The notes beneath the pieces were generated by a model. That model did not search any database. It saw only the letters and a list, made by a program, of their open reading frames with translations, and had not been told where the DNA came from. Position numbers and translations under genes: made by a program. Source: Catellatospora bangladeshensis (GTDB lineage: Bacteria > Actinomycetota > Actinomycetes > Mycobacteriales > Micromonosporaceae). Taken from it: a DNA stretch of 63,735 nucleotides. Positions 2,729 to 14,571 of this stretch are shown here, piece after piece (position 1 is the first letter of the stretch; each line of letters begins with the position of its first letter). The stretch spans positions 1 through 63,735 of the forward strand of contig NZ_BONF01000018.1 of NCBI RefSeq assembly GCF_016862575.1. Direction: 5' to 3'.

Positions 2729-2881
2729 GCCCGGACCGCCTGTTGGGTTATACGAGCGGAGTTGCTTCCGATGCAACTGATGCGCACATTCGGTGACAAC
2801 TGGAATCGGCCGCACGAGTGACCATCACGCACCCGTTAGCTTGGATTAAAGAGGTCGTAGCGGTACTAACGACGCAATGTT

Positions 2882-4015
2882 GTGTTTAATGCAATCATGC
2901 AGGAGCTCGCTGCCTCGATCGTGGCCCCCAACTTGTTGCCGTCATCGGGGGTTGTGTTTCTAGACCCGGCGCCGGCGACGCTGGAGGCCATGCTGGAGGG
3001 CTGGTCTCGGCAGCAGCGGGTGCGGTTCTTGAAGGCGGAGACCATCCGGCGGCGCGTGGACCTGGTGAGGCGGCTGTCGCGTTTTGCCAATCAGTACCCG
3101 TGGGAGTGGAGCGCGTCGGAGGTCGAGGCGTTCGTTGATCACTTGCGGGGTGGGCCGAAGCCGATCGTGTACTCGACGGCGAGGGCCTACCTCAACGGCA
3201 TCCAGTTGTTCCTGGAGTACGTCACCGATCCGCGCTACGAGTGGCAGCAGCTGTGCGAGGAGCGGTTCGGGCGTGCTCCGCAGCAGGTTCTGGGCGAGTG
3301 GAACACCATTGCGCACGTCTCGGAGTACGAGGGCCGGCCGGGTCGGCGTCCGTTGACCTATGACGAGGTCCAGGCGTTGTTCGATGCCGCGGATGGGCGT
3401 GTCGAGGTGATCAGGTCTCGGGGCCGCAAAGGCGGGCTGGCCGCGCAGCGGGACTCGGCGATGCTCAAGGCCGTGTATGCGTTCGGGCTGCGGCGGCGGG
3501 AGGCGTGGGGTCTGGATCTGGCCGATCTTCGTCGCAATCCGCGGGTGCCGGACTTCGGTGAGTTCGGCGCGGTGCTGGTGCGCTGGGGCAAGTCGTCTCG
3601 GGGCAGCCCGCCCAAGCGCCGCACGGTGTTGCTGGTGCCGGAGATGGACTGGATCGTCGCGGTGCTGCGGCAGTGGCTGGACGAAGTGCGGCCCAGGTTT
3701 CAGCCTGCTGGCCTTGCCGCGTTGTGGGTCAATGAGCGCCATGAGCGGGTGTCGTGGCGCAGCCTCAACGACGCGTTCGTCGCGGCCCGGGAGGCGGCTG
3801 GGCTTGACCCGGTCCTGGACCTGCACTGTCTGCGGCACTCCTACGTCACTCACTTGATCGAGTTCGGGTATCCCGAGCGGTTCGTGCAGGAGCAGGTCGG
3901 CCACGCCTATGCCTCCACCACCGCGTTGTACACCGGGGTGTCCGACGAGTACCGCAACCGGCTGTTGACCCGTGCGCTTCAAGCACGGGGACCGAACCTG
4001 TGGGAGGCGTTGTGA
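2882..4015 (+). CDS. Tyrosine recombinase/integrase
   Basis: A 377-residue phage-integrase-family recombinase that cuts and rejoins DNA through a phosphotyrosine. The N-terminal SAM-like core-binding domain spans about residues 30-150 and the catalytic domain 155-365. All active-site residues are visible: Arg204 in FGLRRREAWGLD, a Lys near 236-245, His315 and Arg318 in LHCLRHSY, His341 in VGHAYAST and Tyr350 in ALYTGVS. The GTG at 2882 gives this length; an ATG at 2897 is an equal alternative. Its stop overlaps the next start as GTGA, so it is translationally coupled to the HTH gene. No attachment site was identified. Confidence 0.93.
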   Translation: MFNAIMQELAASIVAPNLLPSSGVVFLDPAPATLEAMLEGWSRQQRVRFLKAETIRRRVDLVRRLSRFANQYPWEWSASEVEAFVDHLRGGPKPIVYSTARAYLNGIQLFLEYVTDPRYEWQQLCEERFGRAPQQVLGEWNTIAHVSEYEGRPGRRPLTYDEVQALFDAADGRVEVIRSRGRKGGLAAQRDSAMLKAVYAFGLRRREAWGLDLADLRRNPRVPDFGEFGAVLVRWGKSSRGSPPKRRTVLLVPEMDWIVAVLRQWLDEVRPRFQPAGLAALWVNERHERVSWRSLNDAFVAAREAAGLDPVLDLHCLRHSYVTHLIEFGYPERFVQEQVGHAYASTTALYTGVSDEYRNRLLTRALQARGPNLWEAL

Positions 4016-4338
4016 CCGGTGGGTTTGCCATTTCCTGGCATCTGCGGCTGCGGATGGCCGAGAAGGGCATGTACGCCACGACGGAGCTGGTGCCGCTGCT
4101 GGCCGAGCGCGGCGTTGACTTGTCCCGTGAGCAGGTGTTCCGGCTGGTGACCCAGCCTCCGCAGCGGCTGAGCATGGACACCCTGGCGGCGTTGTGCGAC
4201 ATCCTCGGTTGCACGCCCAACGATCTGATCGAAGTGCAGCCGGTGCAGGCTGCGGTGCGTAAGGCGGTGGGCGAGGTCGACCGGTCCGGTCCGCCGCCAG
4301 TGCGGCGGACCGCCATTCGTCGACCGGCAGCCGAATGA
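4012..4338 (+). CDS. Small helix-turn-helix protein of the integrase trio
   Basis: A protein of 108 residues with an XRE/Cro-like helix-turn-helix over roughly residues 15-75. The pattern (SWHLRLRMAEKGMYATTEL, then LSREQVFRLVTQPPQRLSMD, then LAALCDILGCTPNDLI) matches the HTH_26/Cro-C1 fold. The start is GTG 4012, overlapping the integrase stop by three bases; its own stop overlaps the next ATG as ATGA. Such coupling suggests fixed stoichiometry with the integrase and the zinc-ribbon protein. It may act as an excisionase-like architectural factor or as a repressor of the cassette, which is inference. Confidence 0.85.
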   Translation: MTGGFAISWHLRLRMAEKGMYATTELVPLLAERGVDLSREQVFRLVTQPPQRLSMDTLAALCDILGCTPNDLIEVQPVQAAVRKAVGEVDRSGPPPVRRTAIRRPAAE

Positions 4339-6626
4339 CCAAGGAGGCACTCGTTGGCGCGATGCGCCAGCGGGTGCTCGACCGGCTCAGTGCCTGCCTG
4401 CCCGGCCTGGCCCAGGTTGACGCCGTCCGGCTGGTCGCGGCGGCCAACGCGGACAAGCGCCGCGGTCTGCGGGAGCTCGATGCGTTTCTGCAGCGCGGGC
4501 TCGACGTCCTGGTGTCGGCATCGTCCGACACGCCGCCGGGCGCGTTTCGGCTTCTGGTGCTGCTGGAGGGCGAGGGCCATCCAGTACGGGTGCCGGTCTG
4601 CGCCGAGTGCGGCCTGCGGCGGACGCATCTGCCTGGGCGCGGCGGTCGTGGTCGCGTGTGCCAGAGCTGCGTGGCCAAGGCACGGGCCCGCCCGTGCGCG
4701 CGGTGCGGGCAGACCCGACCCGTAGCCGTGATCGAGCCGGAAGGTCCGCTGTGCCATCCGTGCCGTGACCGGGATCCGCGTCGGCACGAGCCGTGTTCGC
4801 GATGCGGTCGAGCCCGGCGGGTCAACGGTCGACTTGCGGATGGGTCGCCGCTGTGCAGCACGTGCCATGGCAAGCCGGTCCACATCTGTGCTGAGTGTGG
4901 GCGGGTCGATAAGGTCGCACGTCGCGGGCCGGACGGGCCGTTGTGCCCGCCCTGCTACGAGCGCGGCGGGCGGCAGCCGCGCCGTTGCGGCCACTGCGGC
5001 CGGACGGGGCGGATTTCCGTGCGCGGTCGCGACGGCGGCCCGGACCTGTGCCGGCGCTGCAACCGGCAACCCGTGGTGGAGTGTGCTGGTTGCAAGCGGC
5101 TTCGACCCTGCGCCTTCGCGGCCACGGCGCGGCCGCTATGCGTGTCGTGCCGGCCGAGACGTGCCACGCCATGTGCCCGGTGCGGCACAAGCTGCCAGCC
5201 CGCCGCCCGTTGGCCCATAGGTGGGGTCTGCCGCCACTGTTACCGCCACGCCCGCGCCAACCCGTCGCCTTGCCCTTCCTGCGGCAAAGTACGCGTGCTC
5301 GTCGCGGCCGATTTCCGAGGCCGCGACGTGTGTGGGCCGTGCGCCGGTACCACGATCGACTACACATGCCGTACCTGCGGGCAAGCCGAGGAACGATACC
5401 GGCACGGCGAATGCGTCCGGTGCGTCGCGCGATCAAAGCTGGAAGACCAGTTCCGCAGGCCTGACGGATCTGTTCCGGCGGAGCTCACGCCGCTGCTGGC
5501 GGCGCTTGCCGCAGCGCATCGGCCGCGTTCGGTGCTGGCATGGGTCGAGCGTGGTGACGGCAGTGCGGCACTGCTACGTGACCTTTTGCGATCCGGTTGC
5601 GCTATCACGCATGAGGCCCTCGATGCCGCAACGCGGCAGCAAGCCGCTGCCGCACTACGTGAGATGCTCGTCCACGCCGGTGTCCTGCCCCGCCGCGACG
5701 AGCAACTCGAGCGGCTGGCTCCCTGGCTGAGCCGGACCCTGTCCACCGCACCCGCCCATCACCGGCAGGTGTTGCGCGCCTACGGCAACTGGTCGGTACT
5801 GAGGCGTGCCAGGCTGCGCGCGGACAGGACCCGGTTCACCGCCGCCAGCGCGCGCAACGCCCGCCTCAAAGTCTCCACAGCTCTGACGTTCCTGCGTTGG
5901 CTCGACACGACCGACCTCACCCTCAAGCGGGCTCGCCAGGCACACGTCGACACATGGATAGAGGACGGCGGCCTCAATCGGCGGCTTCTCGGCGGCTTCC
6001 TCACATGGGCCAGCCGGAGAGGACTGGCCCAGAAGCTGTCCGTCGCCGCGATCACCCCGTCTGGGCCCGACCTGTCCATGACCGAAGACCAGAGGTGGGC
6101 GCTGCTCGACCGCCTCCTGCACGACACGACGATCTCCGTCGACGTCCGGACGGCCGCGTCGCTGCTGCTGATCTACGGCCTGCCGGTCACGTTCATCGCG
6201 ACCCTGACCACCGACAATGTCACCACCAGCAGCGGCAAGCACTTCCTGCAGGTCAAGGAACATCGTACGCAGCTGCCGCCCGCCGTCGCCGCCCTGATCA
6301 CGCAAGCCGCGTCCGCAGCGCGCACCTCGTCGCTGGTCGGGCGCGCTGTGCCCGGCACCCCGTGGCTGTTTCCCGGTCGCCTGGCGGGTCGGCCCATCTC
6401 GGCAGCCGCCCTGTGCCAAAGACTGCGCCAGCACGGAATCCGAATTCGCCGTGCGCGCAACTCCGCACTGATCAGCTTGGCTGAGGACCTGCCCGCGCCG
6501 GTATTGAGCAAGATCCTCGGGATCAGCATCACGGCTGCGATCAGATGGACGCGCTACGCCAGGCGGGACTGGCTCGGCTTCGTCGGCGAACGCGCTGCGT
6601 CGGCCGCGAGCCGGTCACAGCGATGA
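4335..6626 (+). CDS. Nine-zinc-ribbon protein with degenerate recombinase-like domain
   Basis: A 763-residue protein. Residues 89-363 hold eighteen CxxC pairs whose odd-numbered members start at 89, 121, 154, 185, 218, 250, 280, 313 and 345. These form nine zinc-ribbon units with a 30-33 residue period. Residues 460-750 look like a tyrosine recombinase: LLLIYGLPVTFIATLTTDNV occupies the position of the first catalytic Arg box, and RRARNSALISLAEDLPAPVL that of the HxxR helix. The catalytic set is lost: Arg to Pro, His to Arg, second His to Ile, Tyr to Trp, with only one Arg kept. The likely role is DNA or target recognition for the active integrase upstream. Some relatives are probably annotated as XerD-like or Fis-family proteins. 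Confidence 0.8.
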   Translation: MTKEALVGAMRQRVLDRLSACLPGLAQVDAVRLVAAANADKRRGLRELDAFLQRGLDVLVSASSDTPPGAFRLLVLLEGEGHPVRVPVCAECGLRRTHLPGRGGRGRVCQSCVAKARARPCARCGQTRPVAVIEPEGPLCHPCRDRDPRRHEPCSRCGRARRVNGRLADGSPLCSTCHGKPVHICAECGRVDKVARRGPDGPLCPPCYERGGRQPRRCGHCGRTGRISVRGRDGGPDLCRRCNRQPVVECAGCKRLRPCAFAATARPLCVSCRPRRATPCARCGTSCQPAARWPIGGVCRHCYRHARANPSPCPSCGKVRVLVAADFRGRDVCGPCAGTTIDYTCRTCGQAEERYRHGECVRCVARSKLEDQFRRPDGSVPAELTPLLAALAAAHRPRSVLAWVERGDGSAALLRDLLRSGCAITHEALDAATRQQAAAALREMLVHAGVLPRRDEQLERLAPWLSRTLSTAPAHHRQVLRAYGNWSVLRRARLRADRTRFTAASARNARLKVSTALTFLRWLDTTDLTLKRARQAHVDTWIEDGGLNRRLLGGFLTWASRRGLAQKLSVAAITPSGPDLSMTEDQRWALLDRLLHDTTISVDVRTAASLLLIYGLPVTFIATLTTDNVTTSSGKHFLQVKEHRTQLPPAVAALITQAASAARTSSLVGRAVPGTPWLFPGRLAGRPISAAALCQRLRQHGIRIRRARNSALISLAEDLPAPVLSKILGISITAAIRWTRYARRDWLGFVGERAASAASRSQR

Positions 6627-6741
6627 CCACCTCCCACACAACCGGCTCGAGCCGTGGTGTGTTGACCGCTGACGACCCGCACCGGGCCGCACGGGCGTCT
6701 GCTGCAGGCCGAGGACCAGTGACCAGAGGAACGGGACAGGC

Positions 6742-6771
6742 GGCAGGGCGGGGCGAGCGCCCCACCCTGCC
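6742..6771 (-). terminator. Terminator hairpin of the M4-M28 protease gene
   Basis: Two 14-base arms separated by two bases, paired throughout on the minus-strand transcript with one G-U. It lies 7 bases past the stop of the protease gene. There is no U-tract, as is common in high-GC actinomycetes. Confidence 0.7.
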
Positions 6772-6778
6772 GTTGAAC

Positions 6779-9700
6779 TTAGCCGACCTGCAGGGTCACG
6801 TCGTCCAGCACGAAGCTGGTCTGCAGGTAGGCGTCCTCGGTGCCGGTGAAGGTCAGCGTGACCGTCTGGCCGGCGTACGCGCCGAGGTTGACCGTGCGCT
6901 GGGTGTAGCCCGCCGCCGCGTTCACGTTGGACAGCGTCACCAGGGTGGTGCCGCCAGCCTTGATCGTGAACGTGTCGTAGGCGACCGCCCCGTACTCGTC
7001 AGTGTCGATGTGCAGCCAGTAGTTCAGCACCGCGCTGGTGCAGCCCGACGGGATGGTGACGGTCTGGCTGATGGCCTCGGTCGCGGTGTAGCCGTAGCCG
7101 CTGAGCCACGCGTACCGGGTGCCGCTGCGCGGCACCTGCCCGATAGAGGTGCCGATCGCGCCGGTGGAGCCGGTCCACGGCGAGGTGCCGGTCTCGAACC
7201 CGCCGTTGAGGATCAGCTGGGCGGCGGTGCAGCCGCCCGGCCCGCCGGGCACGGTCAGCGTGTACGTGGTGCTGTGCGTCGCCGAACCCGAGCCGGTGAT
7301 GGTGATGGTGTAGGTGCCGCCGGCCACCGACGAGCCGACCGAGATGGTGGCGGTCGACGAGCTGCCGGAGGTCACCGACGCCGGGCTGAACGAGACCGTC
7401 ACGCCCGTGGGGGCGCCGCTGGCGGTCAGGTTCACCGTCTGGGCGCTGCCCGAGGTGGTGGCGGTGCCGACGGTGGTCGTGGTGCTGGACCCCGCGTTCA
7501 CGGTGCCCGACGCGGGGCTGGCCGAGATCGAGAAGTCGTCGGTCGGGGTGGACGTGCCGACGGCCCGGTTCCACAGCGTGTAGGCGATGCCGTCGGCGGC
7601 CCGGTCCAGGCCGGTGGCGTTGATGTTGCTGGTGGTGTCGCACGACGAGTGGTAGCAGGAGTCGTACGCCTGACCGGCGGTGCCGCCCCACTTCGACGCC
7701 TGGGCCGAGGTCTTGGTGGCGCTGGCGCCCATGGCGTAGCCGGAGGTCGGGATGCCCGCGTTCTGGAACGAGTAGTCGTCGGAGCGACCCTGGCCCTCGA
7801 CGTTCTCCTCCGGCTGCAGGCTGAGGCTGTCCCAGTACGCCTTCATCGGCTGCGACGCGGTCGAGCTGATGTTGTTGATGAAGTAGCCGCCGTTCTTCGA
7901 CCCGATCATGTCGAAGTTGTAGTAGGCCTTGATCGCGGTCCGCTGGGTGCTGGTGAGGGAGTTGACGTAGAACTTCGAGCCGTTGAGGCCCTGCTCCTCG
8001 TCGGTCCACCAGCCGAAGCGGACCTTGTTCAGCATGGTCGGGTTCTGCGCGGCGAGCGCGAGGGCGACCTCGAGCAGCGCCGCCGAGCCGGAGCCGTTGT
8101 CGTTGATGCCGGGACCGGCCGAGACGCTGTCCAGGTGGGCGCCGAACATGTAGACGTTGCTGGCGTTGCCGCCGGGCCACTCGGCGATCAGGTTCGGGCC
8201 GGCGCCGCTGGTGCAGCCCGAGGTGCAGGGCTGCTCGGTGACGGTGAAGCCGGCGGTCTGCAGCTTGCCCTTGACGTAGGCCACCGACTGCAGGTAGCCC
8301 TGGCCGGTCGAGCGGCGGTTGCCGCCGTTGTTGGTGGCGATGGTGTTGAGCTGGGTCAGGTGCGCCTGCACGTTGGACACGCTGATGTCCGGGGCGGTGC
8401 CGCCGGGGGTGCCGCCGTTGACCGTCAGCGTGTACTGGGCCGTGTGGGTGACCGACCCGGTGCCGGTCACGGTGATGGTGTACGTGCCCGCAGCCGCACT
8501 GGACGTGGTCGCCACCGTCATCGTGGAGCTGTTGCCCGACGTCACCGACGTCGGGCTGAACGACACGGTGACCCCCGACGGGGCACCCGAGGAGGTCAGC
8601 GACACGGTCTGGGCGCTGCCGGAGACGGTCGCGGTGTTGACCGTCGCGGTGACCGAGGAGCCCGCGTTGACGCTGCCCGAGGTGGGGCTGACCGAGACGG
8701 AGAAGTCGGTGCTGGAACCGGTGCAGGTCGGGTCACCGGTCTGGGCCGGGACCGCGACCGCGTTCCACGCGTCCTTGGTCCGATTGAACAGGACGCACGA
8801 GGAGTCCAGGTTCTTCGCGGCGGTCAGGGTCGCGGTGCGGTACTTCTTGTGGGTCATGCCGGAGGTCTTCAGCAGCATGCCGCCGTAGAAGATCTTTCCG
8901 GCGGACTGGATGCCCACGCCGGTGACCGACGACGGGCCGCCCGAGCAGATGGGGCTGTTCGGCTTGCCGCCGCCCGGCGCGCTGCCCTCGGCGAGCAGGT
9001 AGAACCAGTGGTTGAGCGGACCTGCGGCCGCGTGTACCTCCGTGTTCGGGATCGACGAGGAGTAGCAGTTCGGGTGGCCGCCGACCAGCGACGGGTTGTA
9101 CATGTTGCGGATCGGGCCGTCGCCGACGAGGTCGATCTCCTCACCGACCAGGTAGTCGGGTTCGTCGTAGGCGCTGGACTGGTTGGCGTATGCCTCGGTC
9201 AGGGCGCCGAAGATGTCGCCGGTGGCTTCGCCGAGGCCGGCCTCGGAGCTGGTGCCGCCGGGGGTGTTCTGGTCGAGGCCGTGGCCGAACTCGTGGCCCA
9301 CCACGTCCATTGAGGAGATCCAGTTGCCCGCCTGGTTCTTGCCGATGGTGATCGTCGAGCCGTCCCAGTAGGCGTTCTGCTCGTTGAGGCCCACCTTGAT
9401 GGGCCAGCTGCCGCCGTTGCCGTTGTGGCCGTTGCGGCCCAGCCAGCTCGACAGCATGTCCCATTCCTTCTGCGCCGAGTACAGGGCGTCGACGCAGCCG
9501 GTCTCCTTGCTGGTGCCCACGCCGTTGCCCCAGCTGTCGTCCGGGCCGGAGAAGACGGTGTTGGTGCTGTAGTCCTGGCAGTTCAGGCCGGAGCGGGTGG
9601 TGTCGCGCAGGTAGTACGTGCTGCCCGACTGCGACGTGGTGATCGTCAGCGGACTGGGCCCGTTCCACTTGCCGGTGCCGGAGCCCGCCGCGGCGTCCTC

Positions 9701-10288
9701 CTGCTTGGCCAGCACCTGGCCGGTGCGCGCGTCCACGAAGACGTGCAGGTGGCTGGGCGCCGAGGCGGTGCGTCCGGCGACGACGACCTCCCATGCGAGG
9801 CGGGCGGTGCTGTCCTTGACGTGCACCACCAGGGTGCGCGACTCGACCCGGTCGACCTTCGCGAGCAGGCTCTTGGCGGTCTGCTCGGCACGGTCGACGG
9901 CGACGGTCGGCACCACCGACACGTTGATCTTCGTCTTGGTGGCGGCGGAGATCGCCCGGATCGCACCCTTGCCGTCGGCGAGCACGGCGGCGTCGCCGCC
10001 GACCACCGGCAGGCCCCGGTAGGTGCGTGTGTAGGCGATGGAGAACAGCCCGTCGACCCACGGGATCACCATGCGCCGGTCGTACTGCTCGAAGGGGCCC
10101 TTGGCCAGCGCGTCGTGACCGCCGTCGGCCGCCCGGTCGGCCGCGGAGATCGCCAGCGACAACGGGCTCTGCGCCACCGCGGGCGCAGGCGGCGGGGTGG
10201 CCGCGGTCGACGGGGCGGCCACCCCGGTCACGGCGCCCAGGGCGAACAGAACCACGGCAGCGGCCGCCGCGGCATTATTTCGATACAT
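6779..10288 (-). CDS. Secreted dual metalloprotease: M4 endopeptidase fused to M28 aminopeptidase
   Basis: A 1169-residue exported protein. Order of parts: signal peptide (1-30), FTP/PepSY-type propeptide (about 50-200), M4 thermolysin-like domain (205-520), a roughly 98-residue Ser/Thr/Gly-rich beta domain (527-625), M28 aminopeptidase domain (635-910), a second copy of the beta domain (917-1014) and a C-terminal jelly-roll-like module (1020-1169). M4 ligands are visible as HEFGH (332-336) and Glu354 in GEATGD. M28 metal ligands are His718 (GAHLDSV), Asp730, Glu765 in TDEEQG, Asp793 and His880, as in the Streptomyces griseus aminopeptidase type. One polypeptide would both cut proteins internally and trim N-termini outside the cell. 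The ATG has GGAAGGA upstream. Confidence 0.93.
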
Positions 10289-10441
10289 CGCAATCCTTCC
10301 GCCGGGCTGGGGTTAAGGGGGTGGCCGCAGGACCCGGGTTAGCGGGGTGTCCGGCAGCCGGTGACAGCTCGGCTTTGGCGACGACCTTAGGCAAGGCGGA
10401 GGCTGGCCGAAATCAGGGCAACCCCTTGTCCTGGCGCACAA

Positions 10442-10456
10442 TGCACCTCGGGTGCA
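10442..10456 (+). promoter_or_regulatory. Palindrome overlapping the LuxR-ATPase start
   Basis: TGCACC-TCG-GGTGCA is a perfect 6+3+6 palindrome that overlaps the GTG at 10452 and sits 11 bases before the in-frame ATG at 10467. It could be an operator or a small hairpin controlling initiation. No clear ribosome site precedes either start. Confidence 0.35.
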
Positions 10457-13199
10457 TCATGATCCGATGGCAGACTTCCCGACGGTGACGAGTGCGTTCC
10501 AGCAGCCGCCTGGCAACCTGCTGCCAGTGATACCGGCCGAGGTGTACCGCACCCGACGGGTCGTGCTGTTCGGGCCACCCGGCATCGGCAAGACCACCGC
10601 AGCCGGTGTCCTCGGGCAGCAACTGAACCTGCCCGTCGTGCGTCTGGCCCCAGGCCCGCAAGACAGCCGGATCCCCCACGCCGCACTGCTCGAACTCGCG
10701 CTCGCCCTGCAGCCCCAGCCTGGCGCCCAGAAGCTGGCGGCAGGGCTCGACGACGCCGCAGAGCCCGGCTCGGTCGATCACACGAAGACCGCCCTGCGGC
10801 TGCGCCGGCTGACCGCCGCACTGCTGCGCGACACACCGCCCCTGACGCTGCTGGTGGACAACGCCCAGTGGCTGGACCCGGCCAGCGCGGCCATCTTGCG
10901 CTGGGCCCTGCGCATGGCCCCGAACCTTCCCGTCATCGCGGCCGAACGCACGTGGCATCCCGGGGCCGCAGGCCACTGGTGCGGGGAGGACCCATGCACC
11001 GTGCGCATCCCCGCGATGACGGCCGAGCAGATCGCGGCCCTGCTGTCGCCGTACCGGCTGTCCGCCAACCAGGTCACCCAGGCCCACACCCGCAGCGGCG
11101 GAAACCCGGCCCTGGCCCTGGCACTGGCCGGGGCCCACGACCGTACCGCGAACATGTCGGCCACTCGGGGTCCCGAAGGCGACCCGTTGCTCCCCTCGGC
11201 GGCCCGAAGACTGGTGGGCGAATGGCTGGGAACCGTGTCGGCCGACGTCCAGCACCTGTTGACATTCGCCGCGCTCGACGATCAGCCCGACCTCGTACTG
11301 CTGAGCCGCCTCGCCGGTCCGGCCGCCGAGAGCCTCCTGGCCGAGGCCGAGGCAGCCGGACTGATCGACATCGGGCAGCCCGACGGGAAGATCCGGTTCA
11401 CCGCCGCCGCGATCGGCGCAGAACTCGCGGCCCGGCCGCCAGCGGCCGCACGCAGGCTCCTGCACACCCGCCTGGCCGAAGCCAGCCACGACAGCGTCCG
11501 CCGGGACCGTCACACCACGCTGGCAGCCGACACCACCGACCCGCAGTCGGCCTACCACGCCGCCCGCGCCGCCGCCCGCGCCAGGCTGCGCGGACAACAC
11601 GCACTAGCGGCCGAACTGTCGCTGCTCGCCGCCGAACGCACCCCGCACGCCGACACCGATCTGCTCACCGAACGGGCGCTGACCGCCGTCCGCGACGCCG
11701 CGCACTGCGGCGACCTGCTCCGCGGCCAGATCGCGGTCCGCCTCGTCCTGCACCACGACAGCAGCCCCGCCCAACGCGTCAACGCCCTCATCACCCTGAT
11801 CGACTCAGGCGGACAGCACCTGCACAGCGCCGACGAACTGTTCGCCGACGCACTCCACGAGGCGGCCGACCAGCCGGACCTGACCGCGCAGATCCTCATC
11901 CGCCAGGCGATCTGGGCCAACGTCAACGAAGGCAACCCCGGCCGGGCATGCGCCCTGGCCGCCCAGGCCGCCAGCCTGGCCCGGACCGCCGGCGACACCG
12001 CCACCACCGCCATGGCCCTCACCATGCAGGCCCGCGTCCAACGCATCCTCGGCCACCCCGAAGCCCAGACAACGCTCCGCCACGCCCTGTCCCTGCCACG
12101 CAGCACACACATCCCCGTCAACGCCACACCCGAACAGCTCAGTGCCCGCCACGCCCTCTTCGACGACCACCTGGACGAAGCCCGCAACGCCCTGCTGCCA
12201 CTGCTTGTCGAAGCGGAGCGGTCGGGAGACGCCGAGGGCACCGTCGACATCCTGCGCAGCCTCGCCGAAGTCGAGATCCGCGCCGGACGATGCGCACGTG
12301 CCCTGAACTACGCCGACCGAGCCCAGTCGCTGACAGACGGCGCGGGCCTGGACCCCGGACCGGCGTGCTACACCTCCGCACTCGTCGAAGGCATCGCCTC
12401 GCACACCGACTCCGCCCTCGCGCACGCACGCCGCGGGGCCGACACCGCCCGCCGGGAGGACAACAAGGTCTTCCTCTCCCGGAACCTCTTCGCCCTCGGA
12501 CACCTTCTGCTGGTCACCGGCCATCCGAAAGAAGCCCTGCAAGCGCTGGAGGAGGTCCGGACACTTGAGACCCGGCAGCAGGTCCGCGACCCATCCGTCC
12601 TGCGCTGGCACGCCGACCTCGCCGAAGCCCTCATCTGCCTCGGCCACCTCGACCAAGCCCGAGACCTGCTGACCGAAACCCGGCGCACCGCTACCGACCT
12701 GGGGAGAAGCTCCGTCCTGCCCGCGCTCGAACGCTCCCAGGCACTCCTGGACGCCACCCTGGGCGACTATAACGCAGCCGCCCAGCGCCTCACCGACGCA
12801 GCCGACCACCTCCACCACCTGCCCATCGAACGCGGCCGGACCCTGCTGGCACTCAGCCACACCGAACGACGCGGGCGCCGCCGCGCCAGCGCCCGCACCG
12901 CCGCGCAGAGCGCCGCCGAGCTTTTCAACACCCACCAGGCACACCCCTGGAACGAAGCCGCCATCCGAACCCTCCACCGGCTGGACCCCGCCCGCACGCA
13001 CCGCGACACGCTCCCGCGCCTCACCACCGCCGAACAGCGCTGCGCGGAGCTCGCCGCCAGCGGAGCGAGCAACCGCGACATCGCCACAGCCCTCACCATC
13101 AGCGTCAAAACAGTCGAAGCGAACCTCACCCGCGTCTACCGGAAACTCGGCCTCCACTCACGCATCCAACTCGCACACGCTGTCATCCCCGGCACATAA
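10452..13199 (+). CDS. LuxR-family ATP-binding transcriptional regulator (LAL type)
   Basis: A large regulator of 915 residues. It has an AAA/STAND-like ATPase with Walker A GPPGIGKTT (41-49) and Walker B LTLLVDNAQWLD (about 135-146). A long Ala/Leu/Arg-rich helical-repeat region (TPR-like, about 370-840) follows, and a C-terminal LuxR helix-turn-helix (TTAEQRCAELAASGASNRDI, then TVEANLTRVYRKLGL). Such proteins activate target promoters upon ligand-driven ATPase switching, often for secreted enzymes or secondary metabolites. It is divergent from the protease gene, 163 bases away, so regulation of that protease is plausible but unproven. The start is GTG 10452 or ATG 10467. Confidence 0.9.
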   Translation: MHHDPMADFPTVTSAFQQPPGNLLPVIPAEVYRTRRVVLFGPPGIGKTTAAGVLGQQLNLPVVRLAPGPQDSRIPHAALLELALALQPQPGAQKLAAGLDDAAEPGSVDHTKTALRLRRLTAALLRDTPPLTLLVDNAQWLDPASAAILRWALRMAPNLPVIAAERTWHPGAAGHWCGEDPCTVRIPAMTAEQIAALLSPYRLSANQVTQAHTRSGGNPALALALAGAHDRTANMSATRGPEGDPLLPSAARRLVGEWLGTVSADVQHLLTFAALDDQPDLVLLSRLAGPAAESLLAEAEAAGLIDIGQPDGKIRFTAAAIGAELAARPPAAARRLLHTRLAEASHDSVRRDRHTTLAADTTDPQSAYHAARAAARARLRGQHALAAELSLLAAERTPHADTDLLTERALTAVRDAAHCGDLLRGQIAVRLVLHHDSSPAQRVNALITLIDSGGQHLHSADELFADALHEAADQPDLTAQILIRQAIWANVNEGNPGRACALAAQAASLARTAGDTATTAMALTMQARVQRILGHPEAQTTLRHALSLPRSTHIPVNATPEQLSARHALFDDHLDEARNALLPLLVEAERSGDAEGTVDILRSLAEVEIRAGRCARALNYADRAQSLTDGAGLDPGPACYTSALVEGIASHTDSALAHARRGADTARREDNKVFLSRNLFALGHLLLVTGHPKEALQALEEVRTLETRQQVRDPSVLRWHADLAEALICLGHLDQARDLLTETRRTATDLGRSSVLPALERSQALLDATLGDYNAAAQRLTDAADHLHHLPIERGRTLLALSHTERRGRRRASARTAAQSAAELFNTHQAHPWNEAAIRTLHRLDPARTHRDTLPRLTTAEQRCAELAASGASNRDIATALTISVKTVEANLTRVYRKLGLHSRIQLAHAVIPGT

Positions 13200-13839
13200 A
13201 TAACGACCTATCGCAACGGCTCCCAGAGGGACCCGCGTCCGATCCGGGACACGCACACCCCGCCACGTTCACCGCGGCGCTGGTCGGCACCGCGGCGGCA
13301 GCCCGGCAGGCCATCGCGTCCAACATCGGCAACGGTTTACCGGGTGAAGTCGTCCTCGGACGAGGACCGACCGCTGCTCGTCGGCGGACGCCACGGCCTC
13401 CGCTCTGGCGAAGGCAAGCCTTACCCGCCGGCCACGGCAACCGCAATTCCCGGCATCCGGAGACGCCCGGTGCTCTCGGGTTTTATCGTCGGCAGCGCGC
13501 GTCTCGCAGACGCCAGCACGGTCCGCTCATGTGGATGGCGAAAGGGCGCGATGTGTCCAGTCTTCAGGAGGTCATAGCGGTGCTGATCCCGGGCCGCCGT
13601 AGCAGGCGCACTCCTCACGATCTCGCGACCGGACATCAAGCAGGTGAGCCTTACGCCGGAGGTCGGGACGGGACCTGGAATACCAGCGGCAGATATCCCA
13701 TCTAGTGAACGCCGCGCTGAGCCTCTGCACCAGCCTGTTCGCGCGGGTGCCGTAGGCGGCGTGAGTGAGCCAGGCGAGGGCGACCTGTGCGCGCAGGTCG
13801 AGGGAATACCGCAGATTCCGAATATATACGCTCCGCCAG
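13200..13839 (+). other. Intergenic stretch without a supported gene
   Basis: Open frames exist on both strands, the longest reading minus 13572-13877 (101 codons), but none has a convincing ribosome site or recognisable domain. The stretch may hold decayed DNA between the regulator and the beta-propeller gene. Confidence 0.4.
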
Positions 13840-14571
13840 CTACACCGCGTATCCGGTCGTGGCGACGGTGCTGACAACGGTCATCGTTGCGGTGTCGATC
13901 GTCACGACATCAAAGCCCACAGCGACGTACGCCCGGCTGTCATCGGGCGAGAGCGCGATCCCCGCCGTCTGGTCATTGAAACGCAGCCGGGTCACCGCGC
14001 CAGAGACTGTGTCCACCCTGTTCACACTCAAGCTGAATGGGTTTGTCGTGTACAGGTGGCGGCCATCGGCTGAGAGCGCCATGCCCAGGACGCCGTCTGC
14101 GCCGGAGAATGCGCCCAGCGGGGTTAACGTGTTGGTGCTCGTGTCTATCACCGAGATCGGACCGCTGCGCAGATTCCCAACGAACACTTTCGAACCATCA
14201 CGGGCGGCGGCGATGCTCACCGGCTCAATGCCCACGGCCACGTTTGCGAGAGGGGTGTTCGAGGCCGTGTCGATCACGGTGACGGTGTTGCTGCCCGAAC
14301 ACGCCACATACGCTCGCATGCCGTCCGGGCTAAGTGCGATCGCGACCGGCTGGTCCCCCACGGCGATGGCACCCGCTATCTGCTCGGTCAGCGGGTCGAT
14401 GAGCACAACCTTGGCGTTGTTCGCGTCCGTCGCGTACAGGACCGGCCGGGGTGCCACTGTCTCGGCGGCCGCCGTGTCTGCAAAGCCGGTCACGAGGCTG
14501 CACACGATTGCCAGCATCGACAGGGAGATCCCGACGGGACGCCGGGCCCTCCTCAACCCACACGCTTTCAT
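13840..14571 (-). CDS. Secreted YVTN-type beta-propeller repeat protein
   Basis: 243 residues. A signal peptide ends near ADTAAAE (about residue 36). About five YVTN/SMP30-like blades follow, each with the pattern ALSPDGxxAYVA then VxVIDTAxN (for example SPDGMRAYVACSGSNTVTVI and SPDDSRAYVAVGFDVVTID). Complete propellers of this family usually have seven blades, so this one is short. The C-terminus (TTGYAV) ends mid-blade, consistent with truncation or a naturally small form. Function is unknown; members often bind surface partners. Confidence 0.75.
   Translation of the reverse strand: MKACGLRRARRPVGISLSMLAIVCSLVTGFADTAAAETVAPRPVLYATDANNAKVVLIDPLTEQIAGAIAVGDQPVAIALSPDGMRAYVACSGSNTVTVIDTASNTPLANVAVGIEPVSIAAARDGSKVFVGNLRSGPISVIDTSTNTLTPLGAFSGADGVLGMALSADGRHLYTTNPFSLSVNRVDTVSGAVTRLRFNDQTAGIALSPDDSRAYVAVGFDVVTIDTATMTVVSTVATTGYAV

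Follow-up and report, generated by a model that had tools for sequence, protein, structure and literature searches.

A probable Tsy-type transposon with a single active-looking recombinase and a predicted inactive TnsF-like partner in Catellatospora and other Actinobacteria

The DNA analysed here, referred to as the window, is a 63,735-nt stretch of Catellatospora bangladeshensis NZ_BONF01000018.1, and coordinates refer to the whole of it. The original prediction had described an overlapping operon at 2882-6626 that encodes an integrase, a helix-turn-helix (HTH) protein and a zinc protein of nine ribbons whose recombinase domain appeared inactive. This operon was confirmed, and it is the left end of a mobile element that spans 2750-13841. 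The element is probably a Tsy-type transposon, in which a tyrosine recombinase (YRec) would cut and rejoin the DNA, the HTH protein would act on palindromes and a TnsF-like protein would guide target choice, with precise insertion as the result. Tsy elements encode YRec, an HTH protein and TnsF, which has N-terminal zinc fingers and a recombinase domain, while a GIY-YIG nuclease is optional (PMC10293859). The features of the element are:

2750-13841, + strand: whole mobile element, 11,092 bp; the same block is found with different flanks at five places
2762-2776, + strand: terminal palindrome TTGCTTCCGATGCAA; the left end of the element is exactly 12 nt before it
2880-2894, + strand: second, weaker palindrome, differing from the family pattern at 4 positions, immediately ahead of the integrase ATG at 2897
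2882-4015, + strand: tyrosine recombinase (YRec), active-looking
4000-4338, + strand: small Cro/C1-type HTH protein (PF13443), probably starting at the GTG at 4012
4335-6626, + strand: TnsF-like protein, with a zinc-ribbon array (~4599-5423) and then a predicted inactive tyrosine-recombinase fold (~5742-6620)
6779-10288, - strand: cargo, M4 plus M28 peptidase
10452-13199, + strand: cargo, AAA-LuxR regulator
13803-13841, + strand: right terminus, 39 nt, GGAATACCGC...CCAGCT

The third gene of the operon was matched in six of 11 Catellatospora genomes, in two of them merely as a short piece, and the genomes with a match include Catellatospora coxensis, C. sichuanensis and C. tritici. A 12.1-kb block is common to C. 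coxensis and C. sichuanensis and most of it is also present in the window, with flanks that differ on both sides in all three. The copy in Hamadaea tsunoensis, 97% identical to the one in the window and 99% to that in C. coxensis, is in a different location, and a further Hamadaea genome carries the element, again at a different place. One element was hence found at five sites in Catellatospora and Hamadaea, with 93-99% DNA identity and different flanks, and the ends of the copies are base-for-base identical (left end beginning ATACGAGCGGAG, right end finishing CGCCAGCT). The four other copies are 12,111-12,116 bp each, and relative to them the window copy is ~1 kb short, the missing part falling between 13313 and 13339. 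The C. coxensis and C. sichuanensis copies interrupt two distinct genes for ATP-dependent DNA ligases and do so at one and the same codon. Behind the right end of the element comes the old tail of the interrupted ligase, and a new tail is supplied by the element itself. Once rejoined, both ligases were gap-free at the junction when compared with 12 of the 13 loci that matched in the comparison set (L161-L180); the 13th match ends before the junction. Four Hamadaea genomes, two of which are carriers, yielded no empty site for either Hamadaea copy.

Empty and filled sites were compared in the LigD genes of Rhodococcus plasmids. The element in pDJL1 (L056) splits a LigD gene that is intact on pR8L1 and pdjl-6-2, the left flank being 99.4% identical to pR8L1 and the right flank 98.9% identical to pdjl-6-2. 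The empty gene of pR8L1 reads GAATACCGCGAG^TACACCGG, and the pDJL1 junctions hold those two halves with no base lost or doubled. In pYLC1 a second operon, 95% identical and with other cargo, occupies the same codon of another LigD copy. For a Streptomyces site, an empty counterpart is 84-86% identical, and the exact point of insertion was set by the end rules given below. A 6-bp footprint of the SE/Tn554 type was absent at the empty LigD site and at the rejoined ligases. The element is mobile, and insertion is exact and does not duplicate the target. The self-mobilising cassette of the original prediction is supported because one element occupies five sites, a relative has true empty sites and the ends are exact, but the mobile unit in the window exceeds the trio of genes, extending to 13841 and including cargo.

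Both ends were located in eight distinct elements. In all eight, a TTGCATCnGATGCAA-like palindrome begins 12 nt inside the left end, and a 39-nt motif, (G/C)GAATA(C/G)CGCA..., forms the right end and terminates in CCAGnn in five of them. The right motif follows 14 of 40 loci, a count affected by some contigs that end too early, and its carriers include Streptomyces, Rhodococcus and others; more distant clades may have another right end. One right-end candidate (L092) was left unused as it was without CCAG, and another (L058) that ends CCAGGCA, one base off the rule, was kept among the 16 insertion points considered below. A second palindrome close to the integrase start is also a property of the family. 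With up to 4 mismatches allowed, the 390 nt that surround and precede the integrase start contained at least one palindrome in 25 of 27 distinct elements and at least two in 23, compared with 38 and 1, respectively, of 536 control windows, which were downstream of the integrase and largely coding. For this count the duplicates L033, L034, L051 and L126 were omitted and integrases weaker than E 1e-80 excluded, and since the elements are homologous the 27 are not independent cases. The palindrome at 2880-2894 in the window has the same pattern in the same place in the close relative L090, and is likely to be an operator. Inverted repeats (CTCCGC/GCGGAG) at the ends of the window element, noticed by eye in its own family only, were dropped.

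The three genes travel together. All three were present in 34 of 40 loci selected by the third gene, the other six containing pieces only. These loci were fetched through good matches and are not a random sample, and the 34 are not all independent, as four represent one element and two another, and a few have a split gene. In the reverse search, the integrase gave a match at E 1e-40 or better in 13 of 101 family genomes, and the HTH and zinc proteins were found behind it in 13 of 14 distinct places, the exception being a 141-residue match. The third protein also matched 253 of 72,556 plasmid records, six of which were examined within the 40-locus set. That many copies are on plasmids might suggest that a larger conjugative element or plasmid simply carries the operon along as passive cargo. 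This is highly improbable, as there are trio-only units of 3.7-4.0 kb in which the element ends directly beside the operon, and one such unit is present twice in a single genome. That 3,734-bp unit is the smallest of the elements, which range up to 12.1 kb. A viral origin was unsupported: none of 50,697 phage records matched, and a search of viral contigs with P0003 alone confirmed no match.

The third protein was recombinase-like, as predicted, and not an unrelated protein, its homology to TnsF taking in the zinc fingers and the recombinase fold. The plasmid search reached a TnsF-like gene behind tniQ in Acinetobacter tns operons (49 records at E up to 1, two examined), which was taken as TnsF because its place and length agree with the description in PMC10293859. 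The two proteins matched by BLASTP across the zinc array (E 8e-13), and a profile comparison of the third protein with TnsF gave 99.7% (E 1.5e-25). The C-terminal part alone gave 89.5% (E 2e-6), while the zinc array was the best-matched part (E 2.1e-20). This homology makes the trio Tsy-like. The distant third proteins L133, L132, L136 and L131 have six CxxC pairs only, and the length of the zinc array therefore varies approximately threefold.

The catalytic Tyr at 738/739 was found in none of the 50 A1 members with a letter at that position (51 given) and in none of the 39 such locus proteins (41 given). Judged by its sequence, the third protein is catalytically inactive in every protein scored. 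The third protein could not be aligned by sequence with the integrase of the trio (hhalign probability 0.2%), and the positions of the lost residues are therefore based on an alignment with XerD up to profile position 703 and, beyond it, on reading by eye, together with the known motifs. Most other matches of the profile search that gave the XerD alignment were zinc-binding or cytochrome proteins. The catalytic residues are conserved in YRec, which would be the sole active recombinase in the trio.

Two other roles for the inactive protein were considered. It is unlikely that the HTH and third proteins are mere regulators of the integrase outside recombination, like the phage proteins SroF, MrpR and YopR, as all three genes are co-inherited and the third protein is homologous to a target selector required for transposition. 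A less remote, though still doubtful, alternative is that YRec picks the target by itself and that the inactive protein is an accessory or directionality factor, which would fill inactive positions of the tetramer and limit exchange to one strand. Only one type of subunit in the trio elements appears able to cut, and Tfp and GinC are recombinase-like partners without a catalytic motif in the SE and GInt elements (PMC10214605), with all four GInt genes essential for recombination (PMC5385486). Two points argue against it: the homologue TnsF binds comM DNA and selects the target (PMC10293859), and the match to TnsF is strongest in the zinc array. As TnsF is an experimentally shown target selector, a targeting role for its inactive zinc-ribbon homologue is plausible, and we infer that the third protein selects the target.

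Five pairs of insertions are at the same codon of homologous genes, namely ligase, LigD, HATPase_c_2, phage integrase and ISL3 transposase genes. Both open reading frames (ORFs) of the HATPase_c_2 pair depart from the Pfam profile at 124, and both of the phage integrase pair depart from PF00589 at 140. The ISL3 transposase pair departs at profile positions 63 and 67, which are the same codon when counted with the located left ends. M23 peptidase genes are upstream of two further elements, and one element divides an apparent Tn3 transposase, read by eye. Four upstream ORFs scanned (L051, L134, L092, L096) had no Pfam match at E 1e-4. Since the same-codon pairs are in different gene families, different clades appear to home on different conserved coding motifs. 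The gene comM was not among the target genes identified, although not every locus was searched for it.

The original prediction had held that no element with such a partner was known, which was incorrect, as Tsy has the same operon and Tn6022 carries an inactivated TnsF (PMC10293859). The trio elements share with Tsy the YRec-HTH-TnsF operon, in this order in the window and with all three genes in 34 of the 40 loci, the zinc-finger TnsF, cargo behind the operon and a target gene split around the element, the target being DNA that encodes a conserved protein motif. The Tsy of Zoogloea inserts in comM, and its donor was tested with 135-bp and 39-bp ends, 20 bp of the 39-bp end2 being sufficient; the circle junction is AATCCCAGTC/AAGTTCTGAT (PMC10293859). 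Its right terminus, CCCAGTC, can be set beside the CCAGnn of five of the eight ends here, with just ten bases per Zoogloea end comparable. The elements described here differ in that they are in Actinobacteria and have up to nine ribbons, and in that the targets identified are genes for ligase, LigD, HATPase, M23 peptidase, transposase and integrase rather than comM. No GIY-YIG nuclease was found among the window ORFs scanned. They appear to be a variant of the known Tsy kind with other hosts and targets, the difference being the predicted loss of TnsF activity. No report of a stand-alone Tsy-type element with a catalytically dead TnsF was found among the matches listed from the open-licence literature; the TnsF survey in PMC10293859 covered 1,099 homologues.

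The TnsF of the Tn7-like Tn6022 has a homologous zinc array and recombinase-like part and is likewise catalytically inactive, but it works with TnsABC-TniQ and is without the end of the catalytic domain, which stays folded here. Neither TnsABC nor TniQ was found among the window ORFs scanned, the small ORFs having been partly scanned. SE and GInt elements resemble the trio elements in that a terminal operon encodes, among other proteins, one that is recombinase-like but has no catalytic motif, in carrying cargo and in multi-protein recombination (PMC10214605, PMC5385486). They differ in that two of their recombinases are active, and a 6-bp footprint, of which there was none here, marks the insertion of SEs (PMC10214605). 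Tn554 and RIT also have several recombinase genes in a row, two or three of them active (three in RIT), whereas the trio would have one. We know of no zinc-ribbon partner in Tn554 or RIT elements. Insertion of Tn554 does not duplicate the target but, unlike insertion here, leaves a 6-bp footprint (PMC10214605).

Several observations weigh against a Tsy-type transposon guided by an inactive TnsF. In Zoogloea, catalysis by YRec and by TnsF is essential (PMC10293859), whereas the third protein is apparently dead. YRec and the HTH protein were likened to those of the Zoogloea Tsy by description, the sequence comparison having been made with a Tn6022-type TnsF, and the role of the third protein in the trio elements is drawn from homology and anatomy. 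Tandem core-binding domains are reported for TnsF (PMC10293859), but comparison of the two helical parts of the third protein by sequence gave an hhalign probability of 0.5%. The right ends also vary: two elements (L056 and L091, both from Rhodococcus) terminate in CCGGnn and one (L055) in CCAACA. The right motif was detected at only 14 of the 40 loci, and the right ends of more distant clades were not located. The right junction in pYLC1 has one base more than that in pDJL1. No base consensus at the 16 insertion points survives correction, the strongest signal being C at +4 in 12 of the 16 (p 0.0023 for the single position, 0.29 corrected). The window element is less strict in target choice, as three of its five copies are outside ligase genes.

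We propose that YRec would cut and rejoin the DNA at both element ends and at the target, a role assigned because its catalytic residues are conserved. The other two roles are assigned from homology and anatomy. The HTH protein would probably sit on the paired palindromes at the left end and the integrase start, controlling the operon and shaping the end complex. The TnsF-like protein would hold the target DNA through its zinc ribbons and inactive recombinase domain, bending it, and deliver YRec to DNA that codes for a conserved protein motif. The whole unit, including the cargo carried between the operon and the right end, would then insert precisely and without target duplication, presumably via a circular intermediate. 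A single active recombinase would suffice, possibly through exchange of one strand followed by replication, as proposed for SEs.

A number of related structures were also seen. Beside the window copy, a beta-propeller ORF (13840-14571, - strand) has its end at the right junction of the element, which may interrupt the ORF or merely follow its stop codon. A further Catellatospora genome has a 93% identical homologue of the M4/M28 peptidase with no trio. In C. tritici (L036, 9878-17023) there is a decayed relative of the window element in which the left part was not found and the 39-nt right end is kept after other sequence. C. sichuanensis also contains another, distantly related element that consists of the trio alone and follows an M23 peptidase gene (L037, G005:C32, reverse complement, 7227-11187), with a third protein that is 36% identical. 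In Streptomyces hygroscopicus pSHJG1 (L055, 1-2968 and 7557-11259), genes for an integrase, an XRE regulator and a hypothetical protein, in the trio order, are a few kb upstream of the trio. Two integrase-HTH-hypothetical protein operons are back to back in opposite orientation in Rhodococcus sp. YL-1 pYLC1 (L183, 1-3218, - strand, and 3865-7551, + strand). Near the Streptomyces element, a ligase gene in the opposite orientation stops matching its homologue (L057, 13408), possibly a second insertion scar.

The description of Tsy in 2023 was based on a single reconstituted system that depends on cutting by both recombinases (PMC10293859). Natural elements with the Tsy plan have moved recently despite a TnsF that appears inactive, and target selection is therefore separated from catalysis. 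Tentatively, and as something we rate a little below an even chance, these elements may form a large actinobacterial Tsy branch with a single active recombinase. TnsF would in that case be a pure reader, its ribbon array varying from ~3 to 9 or more and homing on conserved-motif DNA in a gene family that differs with the clade, and the branch would represent an intermediate state before Tn7-like elements took over an inactive TnsF. Elements with an inactive TnsF make the proposed route from recombinase to target selector, from Tsy to Tn6022, testable. The same-codon insertions in ligase, LigD, HATPase, ISL3 transposase and integrase genes suggest a group of integrases that are programmed by protein, insert without duplication and differ in their addresses.

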